Below are positions 4,254-6,692 of a DNA stretch of 6,692 bases, piece by piece. A program made the position numbers and the translations under genes. The stretch is from a bacterium. GTDB taxonomy: Bacteria; JAJVIF01; JAGGVT01. The notes beneath the pieces were generated by a model. The model ran no database searches. It was not told where the DNA came from and was given only the letters and a program-made list of their open reading frames with translations. Location of the stretch: positions 1-6,692 of the forward strand of contig JAGGVT010000069.1 in assembly GCA_021157815.1 (NCBI GenBank), given 5' to 3'. The stretch's first letter is position 1. Each line of letters begins with the position of its first letter.

Positions 4254-4892
4254 TCACGCTAGTTTTTCAAGTGCGGTGTTACGAACATTAATATCATTTC
4301 CGGATGGCATCAACGGTTGTCCAATTAGAGTGTTAAATCGAATATTCCTGGCAATATCCTTATCGAGGATTACATTCAGGAAGTCGTGCCATTCAATTGG
4401 ATTGAATCGTTCATTCCACCAATTCATCGCGACAATGCCCTTCCTGTCGATTCCGGTAGTATGCGCAATTGCGCTTGACCAGGGGTAATCAACGGCTCTA
4501 CTCACAGTTCCCGACCTGACAGGATTCTGTTCGACATATCTCAAGGCTGCGACAAGGTGCTTATCATCCAGAGGGCAGGAATAGTGTCGTGCCTGCCAGA
4601 GGTGGCCGCATCGTCCAAACATTTGATTTAATGCTCGAGCGTAATTGTTATGTGCGACTCCTATCGCTTTTGCCATAGAATCCTCATGATTGGGCAACAC
4701 TACAAGGTGAATGTGATTAGGCATAAGGCAATATCCCAGGATAGTTAAATCATGCTTTCGAGCATATTTTTTTAAAAGTGAGAGGTAGAAATCGCGGTTG
4801 GAATCTGAGTGGAAGATCACCTGCCTGTTGTTTCCTCGATGAGTGACATGGTGAGGAGTCCCTGGTATTACAATTCGTGGAGTTCGTGGCAT
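4254..4892 (-). CDS. REP-associated tyrosine transposase (RAYT), Y1/IS200-like HUH nuclease
   Basis: The product is 212 residues, a single-strand DNA nuclease/transposase of the RAYT branch of the Y1 family (PF01797-type), which acts on REP hairpins. The N-terminus has the typical TPHHVTHRGNNRQ segment (12-24). The metal-binding HUH motif is His60 and His62 in MPNHIHLVV. GHLWQARHYS (97-106) is a conserved family block. The likely catalytic tyrosine is Tyr119 in RYVEQNP. YPWSS (136-140) is also typical. All catalytic residues are present, so activity is plausible. The C-terminus (IGQPLMPSGND to ALEKLA) seems shorter than in many relatives and lacks a basic tail. The start at 4892 is set by AGGAGGG eight bases upstream. 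The longer frame to 5054 only translates repeat DNA. No clear promoter is seen. Matching repeats flank the gene at 4209-4227, 5002-5154 and 5170-5312. Confidence 0.92.
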   Translation of the reverse strand: MPRTPRIVIPGTPHHVTHRGNNRQVIFHSDSNRDFYLSLLKKYARKHDLTILGYCLMPNHIHLVVLPNHEDSMAKAIGVAHNNYARALNQMFGRCGHLWQARHYSCPLDDKHLVAALRYVEQNPVRSGTVSRAVDYPWSSAIAHTTGIDRKGIVAMNWWNERFNPIEWHDFLNVILDKDIARNIRFNTLIGQPLMPSGNDINVRNTALEKLA

Positions 4893-4899
4893 TTTATTG

Positions 4900-4906
4900 C
4901 CCTCCT
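4900..4906 (-). promoter_or_regulatory. Shine-Dalgarno site fixing the transposase start
   Basis: AGGAGGG on the minus strand lies eight bases before ATG 4892. The upstream in-frame ATG at 5054 has no such site and would place 54 residues of repeat-derived sequence before the conserved N-terminus. Confidence 0.85.
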
Positions 4907-5001
4907 GATGTTTTGATAGAAAAGTGTTTAAATCCAATAGACGGCGCCAAACAGTAAAACGCTGCACAATATTGGAAAATAATCGAAAAAAAATGAAAAG
5001 G

Positions 5002-5154
5002 GTGTCAGCCATGGTGACAGCCGTGGTGACAGCCACGGTGGCAGCCCATATCAAGTCTTATGTTAAGATAAGCGTAGGATAATATCTCATGCAACTAGTT
5101 TAGCATTAGAGGAAAACCCAGTAAACATCGGCTCCAGCACTGTTTGAACACTTC
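5002..5154 (+). repeat. REP-like repeat, copy A
   Basis: The copy begins with four 12 bp units at 5002-5046: GTGTCAGCCATG, GTGACAGCCGTG, GTGACAGCCACG, GTGGCAGCC. These can form a hairpin, CCGTGG (5021-5026) with CCACGG (5033-5038). A well conserved core at 5047-5097 follows, matching copy B in 48 of 51 positions. The core contains a short hairpin (CTTAT 5057-5061 with ATAAG 5068-5072) followed closely by GTAG (5074-5077). The remainder to 5154 matches copy B more loosely, for example ACTGTTTGAACA against ACTGTTGGAACA. Confidence 0.8.
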
Positions 5155-5169
5155 AAAACTGCAGTAAAA

Positions 5170-5312
5170 GTGTCAGCCGTGGTGACAGCCACGGTGACAG
5201 CCCATATCAAGTCTTATATTATTATAAGCGTAGGATAATATCTCATGCAACTAATAACACATGACGCAAAAAAACTCGGAAAACATTGATTCCGGTACTG
5301 TTGGAACATTCC
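5170..5312 (+). repeat. REP-like repeat, copy B
   Basis: This is a direct repeat of copy A at an offset of 156 bp in the core. It has three 12 bp units rather than four (5170-5202), the same CCGTGG/CCACGG hairpin (5177-5182 with 5189-5194), a 51 bp core at 5203-5253 and GTAG at 5230-5233. The core hairpin is extended to six pairs (CTTATA 5213-5218 with TATAAG 5223-5228). Its right end overlaps the -35 box of the promoter for the gene at 5375. Confidence 0.8.
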
Positions 5313-6391: not shown

Positions 6392-6417
6392 AAACCGGCC
6401 AAATGGCCGGTTTTTTT
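6392..6417 (+). terminator. intrinsic terminator of the gene at 5375
   Basis: A perfect 9 bp GC-rich stem, AAACCGGCC (6392-6400) with GGCCGGTTT (6405-6413), has an AAAT loop and continues into a run of seven T residues (6411-6417). It lies 28 nt after the stop codon. It separates the gene at 5375 from the next promoter. Confidence 0.95.
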
Positions 6418-6460: not shown

Positions 6461-6490
6461 TTGACAAAAATGGGGGGGGGGTGATATAAT
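6461..6490 (+). promoter_or_regulatory. strong promoter with a ten-G tract in its spacer (candidate phase-variable promoter)
   Basis: A perfect TTGACA (6461-6466) is followed by an 18 bp spacer and a perfect TATAAT (6485-6490) with a TGA extension (6482-6484). Ten consecutive G residues (6472-6481) fill most of the spacer. Loss of one G would give the optimal 17 bp spacing, and gain of one or two would weaken the promoter. Length change by slipped-strand mispairing is the known mechanism for such tracts, as in Neisseria porA. It controls the gene at 6553 with a leader of about 55 nt. Confidence 0.85.
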
Positions 6491-6552
6491 TAGTCGTGAG
6501 GATATTGGACCGCTGAAAATTAATTTAATATTTTTATCAAAGGAGCTAAATG

Positions 6553-6692
6553 ATGAACTTCAGGCTTTTTTCAAAGTACTATATGTTACTGATTCCTTTG
6601 TTTCTAATTCTCCTCGCATCTCCCGCAATGGCACCCGAGCATGTTGATTACAGCCAGGATAACTACTGTTATGAGGAAGACCCAGAAGAGGA
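6553..6692 (+). CDS. secreted protein of unknown function, 3'-truncated by the window
   Basis: Only the first 46 codons are visible. They encode a signal peptide: MNFRLFSKYY, a hydrophobic stretch (MLLIPLFLILLA) and likely cleavage near SPAMA. The mature start, PEHVDYSQDNYCYEED, is acidic. Two ATG codons are adjacent (6550 and 6553). AGGAG (6541-6545) lies four bases before the first and seven before the second, so 6553 is preferred. The product is exported, but nothing in the visible part shows a function. Its promoter carries the ten-G tract, which suggests a surface-exposed or variably expressed product. The acidic mature start recalls the acidic tail of the preceding protein, but no homology between them is visible. 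Confidence 0.8.
   Translation, partial: MNFRLFSKYYMLLIPLFLILLASPAMAPEHVDYSQDNYCYEEDPEE

Follow-up and report, generated by a model that had tools for sequence, protein, structure and literature searches.

A ten-G tract in the spacer of a consensus promoter as a candidate phase-variation switch for a secreted-protein and lipoprotein operon

Overview

A run of ten G residues lies between full-consensus -35 and -10 hexamers ahead of a two-gene operon in an uncultured bacterium, where it very probably acts as a transcriptional phase-variation (contingency) switch. The window analysed here is a stretch of 6692 nucleotides, the whole of one contig (G000:C216) of a 3.2-Mb genome in 221 contigs. A preliminary description of the window had proposed such a switch, and the proposal is now well supported, as far as sequence comparison goes, by homologous operons that stand under other tracts and by the recurrence of the architecture elsewhere with differing tract lengths. 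The kind of switch is already known from porA, fetA and tp0126. What is new is this member, its lineage and the occurrence of one operon family under three tract types: G in the promoter, C in the promoter and C in the reading frame.

Promoter structure

A strong terminator precedes the promoter, and a signal-peptide gene follows it (Table 1). Direct reading bears out the TTGACA hexamer, the 18-bp spacer with its G10 tract and the extended -10 element that had been described, together with their placement ahead of a signal-peptide gene with a ribosome binding site. The start codon is the ATG at 6550 (or 6553), 59 nt from the -10 and 83 nt from the -35 hexamer. When the whole window is scanned, the other homopolymers are all 8 nt or shorter, and the tract is thus unique in it, as had been stated. 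The spacer would measure 16 bp at G8, 17 bp at G9, 18 bp at G10 and 19 bp at G11.

Table 1. Features of the promoter region and the start of the operon in the window
Feature	Position	Strand	Basis
Intrinsic terminator that ends the upstream 329-aa gene and insulates the promoter	6392-6417	+	9-bp stem; -17 kcal/mol, z -4.65
-35 hexamer TTGACA	6461-6466	+	6/6 consensus, read directly
AAAAT between -35 and tract	6467-6471	+	read directly
G10 tract, proposed slippage switch inside the 18-bp spacer	6472-6481	+	read directly
Extended -10 TGATATAAT (TGA 6482-6484 and TATAAT 6485-6490, 6/6)	6482-6490	+	read directly
Predicted transcription start, about 7 nt 3' of the -10	6497	+	promoter geometry only
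Shine-Dalgarno AGGAG	6541-6545	+	read directly
Signal peptide MMNFRLFSKYYMLLIPLFLILLASPAMA	6550-6633 (start possibly 6553)	+	translation; judged by eye, no trained predictor
Gene 1, 5' end, cut at contig end	6550-6692	+	remainder on contig C167

Two other kinds of switch were considered for the window gene and rejected. A translational (frameshift) switch does not fit, since the tract ends 68 nt 5' of the ATG, before the predicted transcript start; a tract within the frame is found in a paralogue on contig C14, unlike in the window gene. An invertible promoter (inverton) does not fit either, as no inverted repeats flank the promoter. The repeats that were found comprise the terminator hairpin, a single pair located 5' of the promoter and a weak 10-nt pair 243 nt apart.

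The operon and its relatives

Gene 1 runs off the contig, and a protein search located its remainder at the end of contig C167, which has an exact 127-bp overlap with the window. Joined across the overlap, gene 1 codes for a protein of 227 aa that begins with a signal peptide. It is followed on C167 by gene 2, a 393-aa lipoprotein whose signal ends in ...ISTGC. Pfam and PDB gave nothing significant for either gene, nor did NCBIfam for gene 2. Relatives of gene 1 were absent from three other genomes of the class (E<=0.01), which counts against the proposed switch, and from a wider collection of genome contigs. The contig break itself was considered as a sign of length variants and rejected: the overlap (6566-6692) is a 127-bp k-mer join, which is not where a bubble of differing G lengths would close, and so the break is no evidence of such variants.

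A paralogous operon is present on contig C14 of the same genome (gene 1 42% and gene 2 40% identical). Its promoter is an ordinary TTGACA promoter without a tract, TTGACATTTATTAAATAAAATGTAAACT, and its gene 1 contains a C9 run in codons 4-7 that is in frame as assembled (226 aa). A homologue of the gene 2 lipoprotein (25-28% identity, E 1e-16 and 6e-24) occurs in the genome G001, which belongs to another family of the class, and is preceded by a promoter with TTGAC, a run of 14 C and then GTGTTATACT (-10 TATACT), with a 16-bp spacer; a Shine-Dalgarno sequence is present, and the ATG follows 59 nt after the -10. A fourth lipoprotein homologue, on contig C54, has neither a tract nor a gene 1 partner; thus, inheriting the gene does not by itself bring the tract along, and the family does not need one.

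Two further promoters in these genomes share the layout of the window promoter. The first, on contig C149 of the same genome, reads TTGACT-tttc-G8-tg-TAACAT and precedes genes for a 157-aa Cys-rich secreted protein and a 342-aa lipoprotein. The second, on G001:C300, reads TTGACA-tttatc-G10-TATATT and precedes genes for a 115-aa Cys-rich secreted protein and a 231-aa secreted protein.

These comparisons bear on the explanation that the spacer is static, its G run tuning or lowering promoter strength or binding a regulator without meaningful variation from cell to cell. In its favour, the hexamers are perfect, and one can imagine a strong promoter whose activity the spacer moderates. We nevertheless consider this explanation unlikely: homologous promoters elsewhere keep the layout and change the tract length, the paralogous operon on contig C14 carries its tract inside the coding sequence, a position that makes sense only for frame switching, and G runs about 10 long are inherently unstable in bacteria. 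In Treponema pallidum, tracts of 7-11 G are found within isolates (PMC7864442).

The window also contains, at 2177-2946, a two-piece lipoprotein open reading frame (CSKGKSPVEPVI...) without a tract. By eye, it looks like a broken member of the tract-bearing lipoprotein family.

Tracts across the genome

The genome has no excess of long G/C runs. A global excess of runs of at least 8 was looked for and rejected (37 seen versus about 37 expected under a first-order Markov model), and runs of at least 10 number four, with about two expected under the same model. The case therefore rests on placement. In 200 shuffles of the window, a perfect TTGACA-N14-20-TATAAT arose by chance in three and a G10 in one. 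Perfect promoters number 28 genome-wide, and a long G run occurs in this one only. The rough odds that any of the 11 tracts of at least 9 would land in a perfect promoter are 7e-4.

Fifteen of the 37 runs of at least 8 belong to one repeated intergenic palindrome. The non-palindrome tracts include two in promoters (contigs C216 and C149) and eight at or directly after signal peptides (contigs C13, C14, C23, C70, C89, C109, C174 and C194); a ninth signal-peptide tract, on contig C37, is a C7 run. Under a rough model, chance alone would put about 0.8 non-palindrome tracts within the first 45 nt of a gene; several of the signal-peptide tracts belong to paralogues, and so the independent count is about four. 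The promoter tract on C149 (G8) is the second in this genome ahead of a secreted-protein gene. G9 runs outside promoters include those at C41:19586 and C104:8543.

That the G run arose in the promoter by chance, without selection, agrees with the match between the number of runs of at least 8 and the Markov prediction. It would have to be reconciled with the placement odds, with the second tract promoter in this genome and the two in G001, and with three tract types having hit one operon family, and we regard it as very improbable.

An artefact of sequencing or assembly, through poly-G dark-cycle calls or a miscounted homopolymer, seems extremely improbable, as the G10 is internal, flanked by correct promoter parts, and the architecture recurs in many independent assemblies. 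On the other side, of the 37 long G/C tracts, 7 are found no more than 300 bp from a contig end, versus 1.5 expected; tracts thus disturb this assembly, via coverage loss or length heterogeneity, and as a sign of length variants this excess is suggestive only. The exact count in the window could be off by one, at 9, 10 or 11.

The palindrome, CCCCCCGCTCGCGGGGGGATTAAGGGGGGGG, has 15 intergenic copies in G000 (including C11:7106, C143:34765 and C170:156), among which the 3' G run ranges from 8 to 10. Another family of the class also has an element of this kind (G003 L133, position 1584).

Besides the paralogue on C14, eight genes of the genome carry coding C/G tracts near signal peptides (contigs C13, C23, C174, C194, C37, C89, C70 and C109). 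All eight tracts are out of frame as assembled, and where the contig has room, a long intact frame lies downstream. Seven of the nine coding tracts are exactly one base under the in-frame length: C13:8250 (L139), C23:14050 (L140), C174:3860 (L058), C194:8095 (L141), C37:3674 (L314), C109:3999 (L365) and C70:507 (L062). The flank of the C37 tract has substitutions with total length unchanged. The one-base regularity could reflect a population that is mainly in the OFF state, descent from a common ancestor, or programmed slippage or frameshifting. In another arrangement, at about 1586-1595 of G001:C140 (L125), a C10 tract is immediately 5' of a GGAGG Shine-Dalgarno sequence, possibly as a translation-level length switch or an element that masks the Shine-Dalgarno.

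The same architecture in other bacteria

The pattern TTGAC-N0-10-G8-N0-10-TANNNT was searched in 385 genomes. It gave 81 non-redundant matches, and the reversed pattern gave 18, by a hand tally in which de-duplication covered the matches only. Where the pattern leaves a position open, the matches tend towards consensus, the sixth -35 base being A in 43 of the 81, and spacers of 15-19 bp are found in 56 of the 81 (38% expected). The C-tract equivalent gave 36 matches versus 22 reversed; this signal is weaker than that for G tracts, and C-tracts on the non-template strand were therefore rejected as an equally common device.

A stricter pattern in named genomes yielded at least 120 stretches. The matches listed come from many metagenome bins of Clostridia, Bacilli and Saccharibacteria, and also from Treponema, Helicobacter and Streptobacillus. 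Among them, spacers measure 15-20 bp at 74 of 82 named-genome sites, and the downstream protein is secreted or membrane-bound in 51 of 70 readable cases, a call that used a simple hydropathy rule to recognise a hydrophobic signal or anchor at the N-terminus. The same rule called 72 of 200 background genes, and for tract-less promoters 0 of 20 (strict) and 6 of 27 (looser). In six homologous promoter pairs, the layout is kept and the tract lengths differ (G8/G11, G8/G10, G9/G11, G11/G12, G9/G10 and G10/G11), which is comparative evidence that such tracts change length, at loci other than the window promoter.

By spacer length, the 82 named sites among the matches listed (L180-L259) include 14 with 16 bp, 7 with 17 bp, 15 with 18 bp and 23 with 19 bp. 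The scarcity of 17 may mean that assembled states are often off the optimum, or that G tracts shift it.

Proposed mechanism and known systems

In the proposed switch, slipped-strand mispairing at replication would add or remove Gs in the tract, the changed G count would shift TTGACA relative to TATAAT, and a sigma-70-type RNA polymerase would then transcribe the operon at levels differing from cell to cell. RNA polymerase favours a spacing of about 17 bp. We infer that the tract varies in the population, that expression tracks spacing and that the product is exposed at the surface. By a possible second route, a T-to-G mutation would in one step add to the tract and abolish the TG of the extended -10; a T located 3' of a G-run is a T-to-G mutation hotspot (PMC12344412).

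Closely comparable promoters have been described in pathogens. Neisseria meningitidis porA and N. gonorrhoeae fetA have a G or C tract between the -35 and -10, and a one-base change in the tract alters spacing and transcription (PMC3899988, PMC5320596), in porA among them (PMC3899988). The window promoter likewise has a homopolymeric tract between its hexamers; the organism and product are unrelated, however, and here the hexamers are full-consensus with an extended -10 and switching is only proposed. In T. pallidum, tp0126 (an OmpW homologue) has a poly-G between the -35 and -10, with a reported optimum at a total spacing of 17, measured in an Escherichia coli reporter (PMC7864442). This is the spacing predicted for the window promoter at G9, although the product is another one and the optimum, measured there, is predicted here. 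Three hallmarks of the porA/tp0126 type are found at the window promoter: a mononucleotide tract of at least about 7 between the hexamers (G10), a tract length within reach (G9) that would bring the spacing to the near-optimal 17 bp, and a surface or secreted product, here with a localisation predicted from the signal peptide and the downstream lipoprotein. Two more, tract lengths that differ between cells or strains and a transcript level that follows tract length, would be expected of such a switch.

The earlier suggestion that the present state is intermediate holds in its arithmetic (G10 gives 18 bp and G9 17 bp) and in its match with tp0126; the effect is possibly graded, not ON/OFF, because the consensus hexamers and extended -10 may blunt the effect of spacing.

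Translational phase variation uses poly-G/C tracts in 5' coding regions, for example in Neisseria and Campylobacter. This is the layout of the C14 paralogue and of the lipoprotein family of the genome, whereas the tract of the window gene is upstream of transcription and outside the frame. Homopolymers have also been proposed as a general prokaryotic switch in a survey of poly-A/T tracts at the 5' ends of coding regions (Orsi et al. 2010, PMC2831843); here, in contrast, promoter spacers carry poly-G and signal peptides poly-C. A limited literature search found no survey of poly-G promoter switches in metagenomes, and one may exist.

Other features of the window

Positions 1-2142 encode a long LVIVD-repeat protein (PF08309) that has 11 repeat stretches and whose frame is open where the contig begins. 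An IS200-like Y1 transposase gene at 4254-4913 (minus strand) adjoins two 84-nt direct repeats (5014-5097 and 5170-5253, 94% identical) that contain GTGACAGCC repeats; the transposase and repeats are possibly a RAYT with REP-like elements.

Implications

Homopolymer phase variation has been described chiefly in host-adapted pathogens. Here, what appears to be a system of this sort is found in an uncultured lineage, and its targets, too, are proteins that are secreted or anchored by lipid. That a single operon family stands under three types of tract speaks for selection on the ability to switch as such. A broader proposition could equally well prove right or wrong: that the class keeps a phase-variable operon family of a secreted protein and a lipoprotein in which the switch was re-invented at least three times, and that poly-G promoter-spacer switches for secreted proteins are common and largely uncatalogued across bacterial phyla. 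If so, the re-invented types would be the poly-G promoter, the poly-C promoter and the poly-C reading frame, and the common poly-G switches would be found especially in Clostridia and Bacilli of the gut that are known chiefly through metagenomes. The pattern TTGACA-Nx-G8+-Ny-TATAAT finds many more promoters of this build, and so the distribution of such switches in uncultured bacteria can be tested from existing reads.
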